A stretch of 38,263 bases of DNA from an uncultured Bacteroidia bacterium (GTDB lineage Bacteria; Bacteroidota; Bacteroidia; Bacteroidales; F082): contig CACXQV010000019.1 of assembly GCA_902769875.1 (NCBI GenBank), positions 1 through 38,263 on the forward strand. Direction: 5' to 3'. Each line of letters begins with the position of its first letter. The first letter of the stretch is position 1. A model generated the notes under the pieces. It saw only the letters and a program-made list of their open reading frames with translations. It was not told where the DNA came from and made no database searches. Positions 17,074-23,677 of this stretch are shown here, piece after piece. A program made the position numbers and the translations under genes.

Positions 17074-17340
17074 CTCAGTTATCGAGTTTTTCCCAACTAC
17101 TGAGAAACTCCCTTAGTGTGGTTATTTCCATTTTGGAAAATACCACTAATCCATTTCAACGGCAGTTATTGCAAAATTTGCAACAACTGAAGATAAATCG
17201 AAATTTCCGATTTTTCTACTAAACAATTGAATGAACTTGTCGGAATTTCCGACAGCTTGCTTTTCCTCAACTCATCAAATGACTGTTGCATTTTTTGCAA
17301 TGGTCATTGTTGTCAGTTATTTCCATTTTGGAAACAACTG
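17074..17340. repeat. Array of about seven short hairpins
   Basis: Between the parE stop and the RhuM fragment, palindromes follow each other every 30-45 bases: 17074-17104 (CTCAGTT/AACTaCTGAG), 17118-17147 (core TTTCCATTTTGGAAA), 17163-17189 (core TTGCAAAATTTGCAA), 17195-17213 (AAATCG/CGATTT), 17239-17253 (GTCGGAATTTCCGAC), 17278-17308 (core TTGCATTTTTTGCAA) and 17314-17340 (core TTTCCATTTTGGAAA). The third and last have identical outer arms (CAGTT-A...C-AACTG) around different cores, and two core types occur twice. The last two lie within the RhuM-like reading frame. There are no T-runs and no constant repeat/spacer pattern. Confidence 0.8.
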
Positions 17341-17527
17341 AATTTTCTATCAGTTCACCTTCTTCCAGAATATTACTCAAGTGTTTGCTGACGGCAGGCA
17401 CTCCAACTCCGAAAAGCTGAGCCATAGCCTTCTGTGTCGCCCAGATTGTTTCGTCTTTGACAACCACTTGAATTACGCCTTCCTCATCGGGAAGCTGGTA
17501 TAATATGAATTGGGTTTCGTTGGTCAT
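17267..17527 (-). CDS. Truncated RhuM-like protein
   Basis: The 86-residue product matches the N-terminal region of the virulence RhuM family: FILYQLPDEEGVIQVVVKDETIWATQKAMAQLFGVGVPAVSKHLSNILEEGEL, a winged-helix-like DNA-binding domain, then NSVVSKMEIT. Full-length RhuM proteins continue for about 200 more residues with a YNLDxIIxVGYRVNS motif, which is absent. The frame instead ends 20 residues later inside the hairpin array. The ATG lies three bases after the NA37-like stop, so it is the last gene of the operon. It may be a decayed fragment or a deliberately short DNA-binding regulator. RhuM genes often accompany type I restriction loci. Confidence 0.7.
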   Translation of the reverse strand: MTNETQFILYQLPDEEGVIQVVVKDETIWATQKAMAQLFGVGVPAVSKHLSNILEEGELIENSVVSKMEITDNNDHCKKCNSHLMS

Positions 17528-17530
17528 AAA

Positions 17531-18553
17531 TCATTCTTCCTCACTATAATACACCTTATAATATTTGCCTCTTTCGTCCTCGCCTTGCTCCACATTCTGC
17601 CGGTTGCCGTTGATGATGATTTGAATTTTCTTGTCAAGATTGATAATACGCTTGTAACTTCGCTGTTGCTTCTTAAAAGCATGATTAGAGATGGCAAATG
17701 TATCGTCAATGGTAATGTCATTTTCCGATTCGTAATTACGTCTGAAACTATGGAAACTTTCTATCACTTCTGGTTGTTCGATAACTTCATTGGCGAAATC
17801 TTCAATATCAAATGTGTCTTTCTCCTTGAAGAATTTCAACGACTTGTTCAGCAAATCGATTTGGTCTGCTTTTGAAACCTCAAATTCTTTGGGCAATTCC
17901 TTAGTAACGAAGTTCTTGGCCATTGCCATCACATTTTGCGTGTTAGCATATTCGTCCTTGCGTTGGCGGATGTGCAAGAAGTCATCGATCCAATATTGCG
18001 CGTCTTTATTGTTTTTATCTATCACAAATATCCAAGGCTCTCCTTTTGTGAAAACAATCAGACATGCTTTATCAATATTTTTAGACAATATTCCTGAAAG
18101 GATTCTCATAGATGAAACATTTTCATTATTTAAATCAATCTGTAGAAAAGATTCTTTTTGTTCAATTTTATATATACCTAATGCTTCATAATAAGAATCT
18201 TTGATTTGAACATCTTCAAATTTGGCAAATACTAAATCACCGTCTTTAATTTTCGGATGAATCGCAACATCTTTAAGGTAATAGTATATCTTTTTTGATG
18301 TATTTAAAAGATCTTCCTTATCCCAAAATTCCTTCACAATTTTTCTAAGTACATTCAAATCTATATCTATATCATGAACAAACTCATAAACCTCATTATG
18401 GGAAACAAAAACATCTAATAAGATGTTCTTCAACAAAAAATTATCTGCTTTTTCTATACTTGTATTGCGGCTCGAAAGTATGTTGTGAGAATTATCAATA
18501 CAAAATCTATGACAAATTATTTCACTTATATATGTATCAGTTGTAACTATCAT
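17531..18553 (-). CDS. NA37-like nucleoid-associated protein (NdpA/YejK family)
   Basis: The 340-residue product resembles the 37-kDa nucleoid-associated protein family. The C-terminal half has the Bacteroidota version: FVTKELPKEFEVSKADQIDLLNKS (about residue 212), a FHSFRRNYESEN segment, AISNHAFKKQQRSYKR, and the terminal KYYKVYYSEEE. The middle ILSGILSKNIDKACLIVFTK is also family-like. The first 170 residues are divergent, very AT-rich and phenylalanine/isoleucine-loaded. The E. coli relative binds the nucleoid, and its function is poorly known. The gene starts one base after the membrane-protein stop, so translation is probably coupled. A nucleoid-binding protein translated with a membrane protein and a methyltransferase suggests a DNA-sensing part of a defence operon, which is inferred. 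Confidence 0.75.
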   Translation of the reverse strand: MIVTTDTYISEIICHRFCIDNSHNILSSRNTSIEKADNFLLKNILLDVFVSHNEVYEFVHDIDIDLNVLRKIVKEFWDKEDLLNTSKKIYYYLKDVAIHPKIKDGDLVFAKFEDVQIKDSYYEALGIYKIEQKESFLQIDLNNENVSSMRILSGILSKNIDKACLIVFTKGEPWIFVIDKNNKDAQYWIDDFLHIRQRKDEYANTQNVMAMAKNFVTKELPKEFEVSKADQIDLLNKSLKFFKEKDTFDIEDFANEVIEQPEVIESFHSFRRNYESENDITIDDTFAISNHAFKKQQRSYKRIINLDKKIQIIINGNRQNVEQGEDERGKYYKVYYSEEE

Positions 18554-18554
18554 T

Positions 18555-19151
18555 TTATGCTTTTTTTAGATTAATTACATTGGTTAAACTTGAAACTGCG
18601 AAAAGTGTGTTGTAAAAAATTCTAATCATCCAAAAAATAAAAAGAAATCTAAACGTTAAATTGATTACTATTTTGAAAAACAAACACACCGATTCTAAAC
18701 TCTTTTGTGACACAAAAGTGTAGTCGAACGGGTTGTATGATACACCAATCTGCATAAGAATGAAAATAACGATTAGACAATAAACAGATAGTATTGTTGT
18801 ACGTCCAATCATAAAACTGAATTGTTTGTAAAAATTAAATAATTGTATTTTCTTTGTTCGTTCTTTTCCTGATGTGTTTTCGTTTTTCTCTTCTTTGTCT
18901 GGTATTTTTTCAGATACAAACACTAAAATCGTAATAAAAAGACCAATTAATATTGATAGCGCAGATACACAGTACTCGAGCAGTTTTTCAGAAAAACCAT
19001 TTCTTGAAACAAAAAGTAGTAACAATGAAATAAATACAAACACAAACACACGAAAATAAAACTTTAACGGTTTTATTTCATTGCCATTAATATCTATTCG
19101 TTCATATTTATGGGCTTTTTTTCTTACTATTTTCAAATACTTAATCAACAT
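18555..19151 (-). CDS. Four-helix membrane protein of unknown function
   Basis: The 198-residue product has four clear hydrophobic segments, at about 31-50, 60-82, 113-135 and 155-182. A charged cytoplasmic-looking loop (PDKEEKNENTSGKERTKK) sits between helices 2 and 3, and the N-terminus is basic. I recognise no family. The start ATG overlaps the last 11 bases of the upstream gene, and the next gene begins one base after its stop. Composition is extremely AT-rich (15 of 60 bases G or C at 18541-18600, against 29 of 60 at 16201-16260 in parE), indicating transfer. A small four-helix protein paired with a DNA-binding partner is reminiscent of the KwaA-KwaB pair of the Kiwa system, but sequence identity to KwaA is not claimed. 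Confidence 0.7.
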   Translation of the reverse strand: MLIKYLKIVRKKAHKYERIDINGNEIKPLKFYFRVFVFVFISLLLLFVSRNGFSEKLLEYCVSALSILIGLFITILVFVSEKIPDKEEKNENTSGKERTKKIQLFNFYKQFSFMIGRTTILSVYCLIVIFILMQIGVSYNPFDYTFVSQKSLESVCLFFKIVINLTFRFLFIFWMIRIFYNTLFAVSSLTNVINLKKA

Positions 19152-20175
19152 ATTTCATCTGTAAATCTGGTCTTAACTCTGGAAGAATCTGATCATTGAA
19201 CAAATCATTACAATACTTTTTCAAATCTTCAAAATCAGGACTATTGCTACCCGTCATCTTAACCCTACCTTTGAGATAAACAACTGGTGTAAACTCCTTA
19301 TCTTTTGTATTCCACTCAAATGTATTAGAAGAATTAGTGTTAGTGTTTCTCGTACCAACTTTAATCTTATTGAAATCTTTTAATTCGTTTGTTTTCTTAT
19401 GACCCTTAAATGAACCTTTTGAAAATACATCTATTATTTTATTTCCAAGTTTCGCAAAATCCATAGATTTGTTTTTTGGTGTAATTGTTATACTGACATC
19501 ATAACCGTCCATATCATACAAAAAAGGATCGTCACTTGGAATATCATTCAAAATGGTAGTTTTAAAATTTAGACTATATATTGTTGCTCCTTTCCTAAAC
19601 TCATCTTGAAATTTTTGGGGACAAAATCTTTCAACGATAGGCTTTTTGTAATCACCATATTTGAAAAGCTTTGTGACATAATCACGTAATAAGACAGTAA
19701 TAGTATCTTCAGAATTGTCAGAATGAACCATAAAAAAGCCTTCGGTAAAATCGACAGGAAAATAAAGAAAAATATAATAGTACTTAAGTACAGAATTATC
19801 ACGTTTTAGTTTTTGACTAACCTTTTTGTTGGTTATGTCTGATAAAATAGAATCCTGACTATAGGGTCCAGCATTAAGAACGCCACTAATTATACAGGTG
19901 GAAGTATTAAATGATGGTTTTTTGTCATAATGGACATTCACGGTTTTATCGTCAATCCATGTGAGCACTTTTTTCATTCGCTCATTTATTTCAAAACCTT
20001 TTTCTGGGGCATTCATAAAATGAGCAAATAATTTTGTAAAAACTTTGGCATCTGTTGCAGATTTATCCACCCCTAATACTTCGATTGCAAAATCCTTGAA
20101 GGTTTTATTCTTGTCTGTTTTGTGATTAATCGAGAATCTAAAGAATTCCAATTTAGGATTGTTGCTTTTTGCCAT
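19141..20175 (-). CDS. Unrecognised 344-residue soluble protein of the restriction operon
   Basis: No family is recognised. The protein is soluble and lysine-rich, with no signal peptide. The N-terminal 75 residues are charged and helical. A beta-rich middle (YYYIFLYFPVDFTEGFFMVH, about residues 127-146) is followed by a helix (LLRDYVTKLFKYG). A second strand-rich part includes DVSITITPKN, and there is an asparagine/threonine-rich linker (GTRNTNTNSSNTFEWN, about residue 277). The last 40 residues carry EDLKKYCNDLFNDQILPELRP. It begins five bases after the specificity-subunit stop and overlaps the membrane-protein gene by 11 bases, so it is made together with both. Codon use is strongly A/T-biased compared with the upstream restriction genes. 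Confidence 0.75.
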   Translation of the reverse strand: MAKSNNPKLEFFRFSINHKTDKNKTFKDFAIEVLGVDKSATDAKVFTKLFAHFMNAPEKGFEINERMKKVLTWIDDKTVNVHYDKKPSFNTSTCIISGVLNAGPYSQDSILSDITNKKVSQKLKRDNSVLKYYYIFLYFPVDFTEGFFMVHSDNSEDTITVLLRDYVTKLFKYGDYKKPIVERFCPQKFQDEFRKGATIYSLNFKTTILNDIPSDDPFLYDMDGYDVSITITPKNKSMDFAKLGNKIIDVFSKGSFKGHKKTNELKDFNKIKVGTRNTNTNSSNTFEWNTKDKEFTPVVYLKGRVKMTGSNSPDFEDLKKYCNDLFNDQILPELRPDLQMKYVD

Positions 20176-20180
20176 ATTCT

Positions 20181-21617
20181 TTACTTTTTATCATTAATAA
20201 TCTCGTTCATAATTAAAACCGCCTCCCGTTCCTTCAAATACGCCTGATAGCGCAATTCGTTTGCTTTCAACACTTTGCCGTTTATCTCTTTTTGCTTCGA
20301 TTCATTTTTGAGCAATGGAATCTCTATTTTTGCCAACTGACCTGCATCAATTTCATCAATTACTGCACCGAATGTATTACGCTTGATGAGTTGCTGCGCA
20401 TAATCCGTATTCAGCCAACAATACAGATAGCCTGCAATATCATTGTCGGCAGGGATAATCCTAAATATATGGTCGCTACCAATCCAATTTTCCCAATGCT
20501 GAGGGACTAATGCAACCTTGCCTATCGTTCCACTTCGTGTAATCAAGACACTATTAGCCACAAATTTCAGTTCAGAGTCCAAACTTGAATGTGCAAGATA
20601 CTTTTCGGAACTGGGATTCAGTTCGTTTATTTGTTTTCCACCAATGAATTTCAGACCAAAACTTGAACCGACATAAGTCCTTTTAAAACGTGTAGGCAAA
20701 ACAATTGCTTCGGAGATTTCCGGACTTCCACAAGGAACAATCTTTGCAGCACTTGTTTTCAATATCCCGATTAATACGTCATAAGCTGTTGAATGGTATG
20801 AGCAATCCAACCTCCAGTCCGTTCTGCTCAACTTTATCGAATAATTCCTCAAACCTACATTTCCGTCAAAATACTTGGGTTTCAGTTCCTCAATCGGTGG
20901 CAATCGAAGTTCTTGGAACAGAATCTGTTCGGCCTCGTCCATCAAGGAATTGGATTGGTCGCGAAGGTCGTATGATTCCATAACCAAATTGTGTATCTTT
21001 TCCTTTATGGATTCGGGGGCATTGGGTATGACGATGTTTCTAAGATGCTCTGGTTCGATATGCTGAATGACTGCGCCATAATTGTTGTTCTGAACAAGTT
21101 GCTGTCCTGTCGAGGTGCAGAAAAACGCATAAATGTAGCCCGTATCAAATGGACCTTTGCCATACAGACGGAGCAAATCATGACTGAACACAGCATCGTT
21201 CAAATAATCACCCACAATGCTGCATCGTCCTACTGTTCCAGAAACGGACATAAGCAACATTCCTTTTTTTACCCTTAGTGTGTCAATATCCACATTAGTT
21301 CTGTCCGAAATGTATTTGGATGGTTTGGGATAAACATCCATTATCACCGATGGCAAATAAAAGGGTATGGCTTCTTTGCTTTTTTCGACATAAACCCTTT
21401 TGAACCTGTCACAAACAAAAGCGTCCTCCACCAATCCATTTTCTCCCCACAAATATACATATCCGTATTTGCAATGCTCCACGAGGTTTTTGGCGGCTTT
21501 GGCTTCAAGGTTGTAAGCGTCTGCCTCCAATCGGATGTTGTTGGAATACACCTCCGAAAGCAACACGGAAGTGTATTTCAAAGGATCGGGCAACAATATG
21601 GGATTCCCGTTTACCAT
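20181..21617 (-). CDS. Type I-like specificity subunit (HsdS-type, two target recognition domains)
   Basis: The 478-residue protein consists of two similar halves, each a target-recognition domain followed by a coiled-coil spacer. Half 1 has VSGTVGRCSIVG ... NNYGAVIQHIEPEHLRNIVIP (to about residue 210). Half 2 has RSGTIGKVALVPQ ... NTFGAVIDEIDAGQLAKIEIP (to about residue 440). The G(A)VIxxIxxxxLxxIxIP motif is typical of HsdS and BcgIB. Each half reads half of a bipartite DNA site, directing the methyltransferase/nuclease. The start overlaps the methyltransferase stop by seven bases, indicating coupled synthesis. The halves differ in sequence, so the target is asymmetric, but the site itself cannot be predicted. 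Confidence 0.9.
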   Translation of the reverse strand: MVNGNPILLPDPLKYTSVLLSEVYSNNIRLEADAYNLEAKAAKNLVEHCKYGYVYLWGENGLVEDAFVCDRFKRVYVEKSKEAIPFYLPSVIMDVYPKPSKYISDRTNVDIDTLRVKKGMLLMSVSGTVGRCSIVGDYLNDAVFSHDLLRLYGKGPFDTGYIYAFFCTSTGQQLVQNNNYGAVIQHIEPEHLRNIVIPNAPESIKEKIHNLVMESYDLRDQSNSLMDEAEQILFQELRLPPIEELKPKYFDGNVGLRNYSIKLSRTDWRLDCSYHSTAYDVLIGILKTSAAKIVPCGSPEISEAIVLPTRFKRTYVGSSFGLKFIGGKQINELNPSSEKYLAHSSLDSELKFVANSVLITRSGTIGKVALVPQHWENWIGSDHIFRIIPADNDIAGYLYCWLNTDYAQQLIKRNTFGAVIDEIDAGQLAKIEIPLLKNESKQKEINGKVLKANELRYQAYLKEREAVLIMNEIINDKK

Positions 21618-23635
21618 TGTATGCCCTCCTCACGTTTCCATTTTTCAAAAACATCGGCCACTAAAACGGTTTGGTCGTTGACGACTTTTTCTTGCTGCAT
21701 CTCTGTACGATAGGCAAGACTTCCGTCCAAAGCCCGTTCAGTTACCGTTTTTTCCTCCGCCTTGACAATGACATTGCCTTCCTCGTCGCGCTTGTAGATT
21801 TTGTTGCCGCGCTTGTCGTGCCCAATATGGTCAATCATAGCCATAAAAATGCTGTAGTCGATGATTTGTCCGCTCTTTTCCTCCTCATCAATCTCCTTTT
21901 GGGTTTTCTTTTGCAAGAATAGGATTGAGCATTGCGTTCCGTTGTGCGGCTGGAATGTGTCGGCGTGAAGGTCGATACTTGCAACAATCCTTGTCTTGCG
22001 TATCAGCCATTGGCGAATGTATTCCAATCCCGGAGAGCCAAGAATGCTGTCAGGAAGGACAATAGCTGTCCGTCCGCCTTCTTTCAGCAATTGAAGCACT
22101 CGTTCAATGAAAAGTTGCTCAGGCGGCACACTCGATTTCAGTTTTTTCTGCATCGCCCATCTTCCATCTGGTTGTTTCTCCCAAATATGGGCAAGTTCGA
22201 ATTGTTCAAGAATTTGCTGGTCTTGAATCGGTATTTTTGTTCCGAATGGCGGATTGGTGACAATCACATCGAAGAATCCTATCGACTTGTAATTGGTGAT
22301 GCTGTCTGCGTTGATGTGTAAAGTCTCCGCCAAGTGCCGTTTTGTTTCTTCACTCCATTCGTGAGGCGGAAGCAATGTGTTCATCTGCATAATGTTTCCG
22401 CTTCCGTCGTTGTTCATCACCATATTCATCTTGGTGGCCTTAACAAGGTCGGGATTGATGTCGAAGCCGAAGAAGTTTTCGCTTGCAATCTCGGAAATCC
22501 TGTCATTGTAAGCCTTGGTTATATCGTTGTTCCAACCGTCTTTGGGGCCATATTGTTCTTCCATTCTTTTCGTCAAGCGGTTCACGACGCAAGTCATAGC
22601 ATTGACAATGAATCCACCCGTTCCACAACTGCTGTCCAACACTTTCTCGTCGTCTTTGGGATTTATCATCTCCACAGCCATTTTCATCACATTTCGTGGA
22701 GTGAAAAACTCGCCACGGTCGCCGCGAAGATTCGACCCCACTATTTCCTCGTATGCCTTGCCTTTGATGTCGATATTAGTGTTGAGCAAAGTGTATTTCT
22801 GCAACTCGGCCACAAGGAATGTAAGAGTACGCGGATTGAGTTTTATCTCATCGTTGGCATCAAAAATTTGCGGATGGCGCTTTTTAACCGCCTCGAAGAT
22901 TTTATCAATACGTTTCTTTACGGTAATTTGTCCGTCGCGATTATTGCGTTCCTTATTGGTGGTGTAGAACTCAATGGGATTGAGCAGATTGCGCTCGTCT
23001 TGTATTTTGCAGAAAATGACTTTCAAAAACTCGAAAAACGCTGGTTGTTTCTGCAATCCCTCATTGCTGTAAATGATATTGTGGCAAGTGCGGAACGTAA
23101 ACAAAAGATTGTCGTCAGAAGCCTTGGTCAATGTGTTGCGGTTAGGCCGACCATCCTCATCAGTTTTGCCGTCGGCTGAGGGAATGTCGTTGTATTCCAC
23201 AAATGCGAAAGAGCCGTTTTCATCTTTCAGTTTGCGGTAAACGGTCTTGCTAATCCCGTTAGTCCACATTCCCCATTCACAATTGGCACAACTCGACATA
23301 TAAGTCTTCAGTTGCTCAATACCATTATCTTTGTCGGAGGCTTTAACCGACTCCTTCTTACATTCTATAATTAACCAGATTTTATGCTGGTCTTTTTTGT
23401 CGTCCGATGAGGCACCGTCAGGAAATATCACAATATCTGCACGTTTCTTTCCCGAACCCATTTGCACGGGATATTCCACCGCAATGCGTTCTTTGGCATA
23501 TTTGTGTTCATTCACCAGACGTTTTTCAACGGTCTGTCGCACATATTCTTCCGGAGTGTCGTTGCGGATTGTCCCGTCCACATAGTCACGGATTTTCCCT
23601 TCGGGAATGACTAATATTGTTTCCTGATTATCCAT
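21611..23635 (-). CDS. Fused PD-(D/E)XK nuclease and N6-adenine methyltransferase (BcgI-like RM subunit)
   Basis: The 674-residue protein joins an HsdR-N-type nuclease domain to an HsdM-type methyltransferase. In the nuclease, D67 lies in KKRADIVIF and E91/K93 in LIIECKKE, the PD-(D/E)XK pattern. The methyltransferase has motif I VLDSSCGTGGF (about residue 333) and motif IV VTNPPFGTK (about residue 461), with an HsdM N-terminal helical bundle between. No DEAD-box helicase is present in this or any neighbour, so this is not a classical type I system. BcgI-type (type IIB) enzymes have the same R-M fusion plus a separate S subunit. An ATG at 23635 is preferred over the GTG at 23638. It is first in the six-gene operon. 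Confidence 0.9.
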   Translation of the reverse strand: MDNQETILVIPEGKIRDYVDGTIRNDTPEEYVRQTVEKRLVNEHKYAKERIAVEYPVQMGSGKKRADIVIFPDGASSDDKKDQHKIWLIIECKKESVKASDKDNGIEQLKTYMSSCANCEWGMWTNGISKTVYRKLKDENGSFAFVEYNDIPSADGKTDEDGRPNRNTLTKASDDNLLFTFRTCHNIIYSNEGLQKQPAFFEFLKVIFCKIQDERNLLNPIEFYTTNKERNNRDGQITVKKRIDKIFEAVKKRHPQIFDANDEIKLNPRTLTFLVAELQKYTLLNTNIDIKGKAYEEIVGSNLRGDRGEFFTPRNVMKMAVEMINPKDDEKVLDSSCGTGGFIVNAMTCVVNRLTKRMEEQYGPKDGWNNDITKAYNDRISEIASENFFGFDINPDLVKATKMNMVMNNDGSGNIMQMNTLLPPHEWSEETKRHLAETLHINADSITNYKSIGFFDVIVTNPPFGTKIPIQDQQILEQFELAHIWEKQPDGRWAMQKKLKSSVPPEQLFIERVLQLLKEGGRTAIVLPDSILGSPGLEYIRQWLIRKTRIVASIDLHADTFQPHNGTQCSILFLQKKTQKEIDEEEKSGQIIDYSIFMAMIDHIGHDKRGNKIYKRDEEGNVIVKAEEKTVTERALDGSLAYRTEMQQEKVVNDQTVLVADVFEKWKREEGIQW

Positions 23636-23640
23636 CACTT

Positions 23641-23677
23641 AGCGTATAAAATTTTTATTTTTTACGCTGCAAAATTA
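23641..23677 (-). promoter_or_regulatory. Promoter and possible operator of the restriction operon
   Basis: A TAATTTTG -7 box lies at 23677-23670 on the minus strand, with TTTTTG and TTTTG stretches upstream. Exactly at the expected transcription start sits an inverted repeat AGCGTA (23641-23646)/TACGCT (23662-23667). It could be an operator or form a hairpin in the short leader. No controller (C-protein) gene is seen next to it. Confidence 0.55.

Follow-up and report, generated by a model that had tools for sequence, protein, structure and literature searches.

The six-gene operon on the minus strand of the window (the whole 38,263-nucleotide stretch analysed) is a mosaic of three blocks: a restriction-modification (R-M) core, a cassette consisting of a 344-residue orphan protein (U), a small membrane protein (TM) and the N-terminal half of an NA37-type nucleoid-associated protein, and a remainder made up of the C-terminal half of NA37 and a truncated RhuM gene (Table 1). 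We propose that the operon holds two stacked defences of separate origin, a nuclease-competent R-M pair and, in a slot whose content can be swapped, an exclusion module resembling RexAB, and regard the chances for and against this proposal as evenly balanced. The mosaic make-up, seen in the present analysis, had escaped the earlier note on this DNA.

Table 1. Features of the operon and its surroundings in the window, the six genes being given in operon order
Feature	Position	Strand	Remarks
Nuclease-N6-adenine methyltransferase fusion, 675 aa, MAD2 sister	21611..23638	-	PD-ExK motif AD..IECKK retained
Specificity subunit, 478 aa, MAD5 sister	20181..21617	-	
U, 344-aa orphan, pI 9.0	19141..20175	-	Predicted fold nearest RexA/CENP-N-Iml3/RdgC; putative DNA sensor
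TM, 198-aa four-TM membrane protein	18555..19151	-	Constant partner of U; putative RexB-like effector
NA37/YejK nucleoid-associated protein, 340 aa, chimeric	17531..18553	-	N-terminal half from cassette, C-terminal half from resident locus
RhuM fragment, 86 aa	17267..17527	-	DNA homology with the L003 block stops at 17410
Exchanged GC-poor cassette, U, TM and NA37 N-terminal half	18005..20170 (approximate ends)	-	
Whole transferable block shared with L003	17410..23698	-	At another chromosomal place in L003

All six open reading frames were recovered between positions 23638 and 17267, with junctions of -7, +5, -11, +1 and +3 bases. A rumen Bacteroidia metagenome-assembled genome (locus L003) carries the block with 97.9% DNA identity over 6289 bp, flanked by other genes, and since this near-identical copy lies in different surroundings the six genes form a unit and not a chance row; the single operon that had been read from the sequence is thereby borne out. 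The single promoter proposed for it is not, as a scan for sigma-70 sites gave 19 against the 20.8 expected in shuffled sequences. An inverted repeat (AGCGTA/TACGCT, found by eye) at about 23635-23665, just 5' of the first start codon, is possibly an operator or a leader hairpin. The six genes of L003 include a full-length RhuM, and locus L199 of genome G697 carries the same genes. The 86-residue reading frame of the window, named PDC-S05 by PADLOC and which we take to be RhuM, is a fragment of a 328-residue protein that comes after NA37 in L003 and in the same-genus locus L197. The blocks also differ in GC content, which is 0.45 and 0.41 in the two R-M genes, 0.31 in U and 0.27 in TM, and which steps from 0.27 to 0.38 between the 5' and 3' halves of the NA37 gene.

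In the window the block is placed between two genes that we read as parE and a prolyl-oligopeptidase-like gene (POP). Nine same-genus POP loci were aligned, and in four of them (L074-L077) parE and POP are adjacent and represent the empty site; parE is absent from the fetched stretch of the remaining five. Other genes occupy the gap in G641 (L089). In G668 (L197) methyltransferase genes come after this POP gene, including one that is presumably of the C5 type from its motif, and U, TM, NA37 and RhuM come after these. Because the site is found empty, differently filled and bearing U-TM, it is a variable insertion spot. A cluster of near-palindromic repeats (CAGTT...AACTG type, by eye) lies at 17113-17340, in and after the RhuM fragment; L089 has a copy of this stretch close to POP (88.6% over 228 bp), and L088 a partial one.

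A family scan matched the 675-residue protein to N6_Mtase and HSDR_N_2 and the 478-residue protein to Methylase_S. Their nearest named relatives are the MADS subunits MAD2 (645 bits, below the NCBIfam cut-off of 720) and MAD5 (327 bits, below the cut-off of 400), and no match to MAD6, MAD7 or MAD8 was found among the other operon proteins in the NCBIfam scan. The methyltransferase was matched in nine of 295 class genomes (window's own included) at E<=1e-60, with at most four candidates scored per genome and all eight non-self loci mapped. The three best non-self matches fall in MADS loci in two cases and in a MADS-like locus in the third: in L047, MAD2, MAD5, MAD6 and MAD7 are all over cut-off, in L048 MAD6 and MAD7 are over cut-off, and in L046 MAD7 and MAD8 are matched, both below it (of the three methyltransferases, the NCBIfam scan covered that of L047). 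In a comparison of ten proteins, the E-x-K of the PD-ExK site is missing from the methyltransferases of all three of these loci, whereas AD..IECKK is kept in the window and L003, and five other fused enzymes retain ECKK, ELKK or EVKR at the nuclease site. An intact PD-ExK motif and an N6 methyltransferase in one protein, the specificity subunit being a second one, make up an arrangement that we take to resemble BcgI-like type IIB R-M systems. Given the intact motif, the R-M core should be able to restrict by itself.

U and TM exceed no Pfam or NCBIfam cut-off and have no PADLOC hit. The Pfam matches of U to NCBP3 and PFU and its weak PADLOC names (PDC-M13A, E 0.051, and PDC-M09A, E 0.11, with one of 11 members each) were taken as chance. 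In TM, one count gives four hydrophobic segments and another gives five overlapping ones. The gene set had been put forward as undescribed, and this stands for U and TM, which lack any such model; the literature searched, by title or abstract opening and with a phage-defence search too broad to be exhaustive, gave no description of a U-TM-NA37 system. Relatives of U are sparse. A single protein query found them in two of 296 phylum genomes and a profile in nine of 395 class genomes, of which the G636 match is false; four of 60 genomes of the genus have them, and all three counts include the window's own genome. The false match (L070, E 7e-4) lies inside a 744-residue protein unlike U, RelA/SpoT by our reading, and was dropped. 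Searches of plasmids and phages with U of the window and of L055 gave no match, nor did a search of plasmids with U of L066; U of L069 found two Acinetobacter plasmids. In IMG/VR, query A1 gave no match and query A4 one, the same single match being returned with its own U.

Fifteen U loci were compared (the window, L003, L004, L005, L055, L064-L069, L183, L184, L197 and L198; L112 was left out), and these represent about 12 lineages, since the window and L003, L004 and L005, and L183 and L184 are near copies. In 14 of them the gene that directly follows U encodes a membrane protein of 171-213 residues, and in the fifteenth, L065, the copy is broken by an in-frame stop. The view that the downstream genes constitute a module is upheld by this recurrence, and a reading as a membrane protein plus a DNA binder fits; NA37, which had been counted in the module, directly follows TM in seven loci (window, L003, L055, L064, L066, L197, L198) and is not adjacent to it in the other eight, so that the minimal unit is U-TM.

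The linkage of U to R-M genes is loose. The R-M core of the window precedes U in two of the 15 loci (the window and its near copy L003), which speaks against the single interdependent machine suggested before. The outcome that the earlier note named as telling against it, the three downstream genes lying mostly apart from R-M genes, applies by half: most loci lack this particular core, yet close to half have an R-M or methyltransferase gene of some kind in the vicinity. Some R-M or methyltransferase gene lies within the fetched stretch in seven loci (window, L003, L004, L065, L066, L067, L197), a lower bound because the stretches differ in length, the types being type I in L004 and L067, type II in L065 and a partial N6_Mtase in L066. 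These neighbours were assigned by BLAST with the window proteins, PADLOC (ten chosen proteins), PF02384 (eight genomes) and eye. In three of the eight genomes searched, the window's own included, a PF02384 match lies no more than 8 kb from U, against about 0.2 expected by chance (estimated from counts and genome sizes); without the window, whose R-M genes were the reason for its choice, there are two against about 0.15.

Several of these loci have further features. In Flavobacterium sp. SLB02 (L004, 60-16444) the cyclase, TRIP13 and 2TM effector of a CBASS system are placed, together with U-TM, between hsdR and genes that we read as hsdM-hsdS. PADLOC weakly matches the TM protein of L064 (2368-2991) to a model for 2TM effectors of CBASS (E 0.00097), and on this IMG/VR contig (1-10366) U-TM-NA37 has in its vicinity what we read as a recombinase gene and a truncated comM-like one, which suggests an integrative element rather than a phage. 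L065 (4422-10830) has in one block a type II methyltransferase, an REase-like protein, U, the interrupted TM, a presumably AlbA-like protein and a RhuM relative, with RhuM occurring once more at the end.

The 340-residue protein belongs to NA37 (PF04245; 80.3 bits against a cut-off of 24.6) and differs from YejK/NdpA in being chimeric and in an operon with U-TM. Compared with L197 in blocks of 40 columns, it is 23-35% identical in the first four, 50% in the fifth and 93-100% in the last four; against L196, also of the same genus, the values are 18-36, 44 and 72-90%. The DNA similarity detected to these loci begins at 18005 and 18004, and a 30-base profile climbs between about 18028 and 18002. 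A quick tree of the N-terminal half places the window nearest L055 and L064 by path, in a group of 13 rows with nine chromosomal ones (support 99), and the L196-L198 group elsewhere (support 95); in that of the C-terminal half the window is in a clade with L003, L196 and L197 (support 100). In the U tree, the window, L003, L055 and L064 form a clade (100/100) apart from L197-L198 (99/98). U, TM and the N-terminal half of NA37 thus look exchanged as a unit, as the NA37 similarity to two same-genus loci starts only at about 18005, and the simplest reading of these sequences would be that the three came in jointly and were joined, by recombination within NA37, to a C-terminal half that was already resident.

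At L196 the layout is similar, with methyltransferase, specificity subunit and NA37 (residues 40-340) 78, 66 and 57% identical to those of the window, and the places of U and TM are taken by a 304-residue protein and a 169-residue four-TM protein for which BLAST at E 0.01 gives no link to U or TM. A six-sequence profile search for L196 gave E values of 7.5e-5 for the TM profile, 0.05 for the U profile and 0.01 for the RexA profile. The layout is the same with other proteins, so that the slot persists and what it holds varies. A single origin of the NA37 link was rejected when the five NA37 proteins of U-TM-NA37 trios were constrained to one clade (p-AU 0.0004) and was not rejected for four of them without L066 (p 0.185), both with whole NA37 proteins, chimera ignored, and without L196-L198. 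In a genome of the same order (L045, 8424-9436), a remnant of an NA37 3' end (74% over 144 bp) lies directly before a gene that we read as DinD-like, a further sign of exchange at that point.

RexAB is among the oldest known phage-exclusion systems and is regarded as a prophage gene pair. The fold predicted for U appears nearest to that of RexA and its structural kin, RdgC and CENP-N-Iml3, and four phage proteins match U in BFVD. No RexA profile match for U was obtained by hhalign, hmmsearch --max or 60 column shuffles, and homology by sequence was therefore dropped in favour of a fold-level resemblance; as a control in the same test, 37 of 60 shuffles scored as high for U against NA37. TM compared with RexB gave an hhalign P of 0.044 over 27 columns. 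As in lambda RexA-RexB (PF15969, PF15968), a basic soluble protein is followed by a small multi-TM protein, an order found in all 15 loci, the stop-interrupted one included. The pairs differ in the absence of profile support, in length (U is 65 and TM 54 residues longer) and in the NA37 gene that often follows TM; no CI/Cro arrangement was noted at the loci that were read, although L005 has, by reading, an HTH-type gene upstream. By analogy and from the predicted fold, U-TM most likely acts like RexA-RexB.

A different reading is a variant of MADS in which methylation of the MAD2/MAD5 type marks self and U-TM-NA37, in place of MAD6, MAD7 and MAD8, acts on unmethylated DNA, all parts cooperating. 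The kinship of the two R-M subunits, the MADS company of the best methyltransferase matches and the order retained at L196 (methyltransferase-specificity subunit, soluble protein, four-TM protein, NA37), even with a hardly recognizable soluble protein, argue for it. We nevertheless consider it unlikely, since both scores are below cut-off, MAD6, MAD7 and MAD8 are unmatched, with the intact nuclease motif restriction need not depend on another effector and U-TM occurs without this core in 13 of the 15 loci. It is likewise improbable that U-TM-NA37 has no part in defence and is instead a module for housekeeping of nucleoid and membrane, or for the maintenance of mobile elements, that rides along in variable spots. 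No R-M gene was recognized in eight of the 15 loci, the L068 and L069 copies lie among genes without a defence look and NA37 relatives occur in 146 of 295 class genomes at E<=1e-10, all as such a module would have it, but U is patchy among the class genomes, U-TM is carried on plasmids and a recombinase-bearing contig, and U and TM diverge fast relative to the C-terminal half of NA37 and RhuM.

The likeness to Kiwa drawn in the earlier note fares worst. In Kiwa, as reviewed in PMC12904381, KwaA senses phage attachment and KwaB binds DNA, phage DNA being blocked without killing of the cell. TM would correspond to KwaA and U or NA37 to KwaB, and the parts are alike in that a multi-TM protein is combined with a putative DNA binder of 320-340 residues. 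However, profile comparisons gave no similarity (U-KwaB, P 0.9; TM-KwaA, P 0.35; NA37-KwaB, P 0.09), PF16162 (KwaB) is unmatched in the window's own genome (G000), Pfam KwaB was matched by none of the six proteins of the operon at E<=1, and the four fetched KwaB loci have their TM gene in first place, the window in last. PADLOC, which presumably includes Kiwa models, has no hit for the window proteins. Solved KwaB chains exist, and their absence from the best 50 matches listed for U or NA37 excludes nothing. With the predicted fold pointing instead to lambda RexA and RdgC, a Kiwa-like module is very unlikely.

In the two-defence proposal, the R-M pair, with its MAD2/MAD5-type modification and specificity subunits, would work alone as a separate first barrier. 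U, basic and with a predicted RexA/RdgC-type fold, may as a dimer bind either the DNA of a phage or an intermediate of replication or recombination, and then signal to the four-helix TM protein, which would perturb the inner membrane and so stop the infection. In the NA37-bearing subtype the YejK-type nucleoid protein would be added as an adaptor, its N-terminal half probably docking to U-TM, as this half travels with them, and its C-terminal half staying with the resident locus. More tentatively, and with somewhat less confidence than doubt, we suggest that U-TM represents an undescribed cross-phylum family of RexAB-type defences, and that U-TM-NA37(N) is one exchangeable sensor-effector cassette, swapped inside NA37 against a fixed NA37(C)-RhuM part behind different R-M systems, with the nucleoid protein as adaptor.

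The operon also provides a sister to the modification genes of MADS that should be nuclease-competent. If the wider suggestion holds, there would be a family of RexA-type fold, found on chromosomes and plasmids and linked to a nucleoid protein, with many natural variants in which to find the trigger of RexAB, and the recombination point inside NA37 would mark a concrete candidate for a protein interface.
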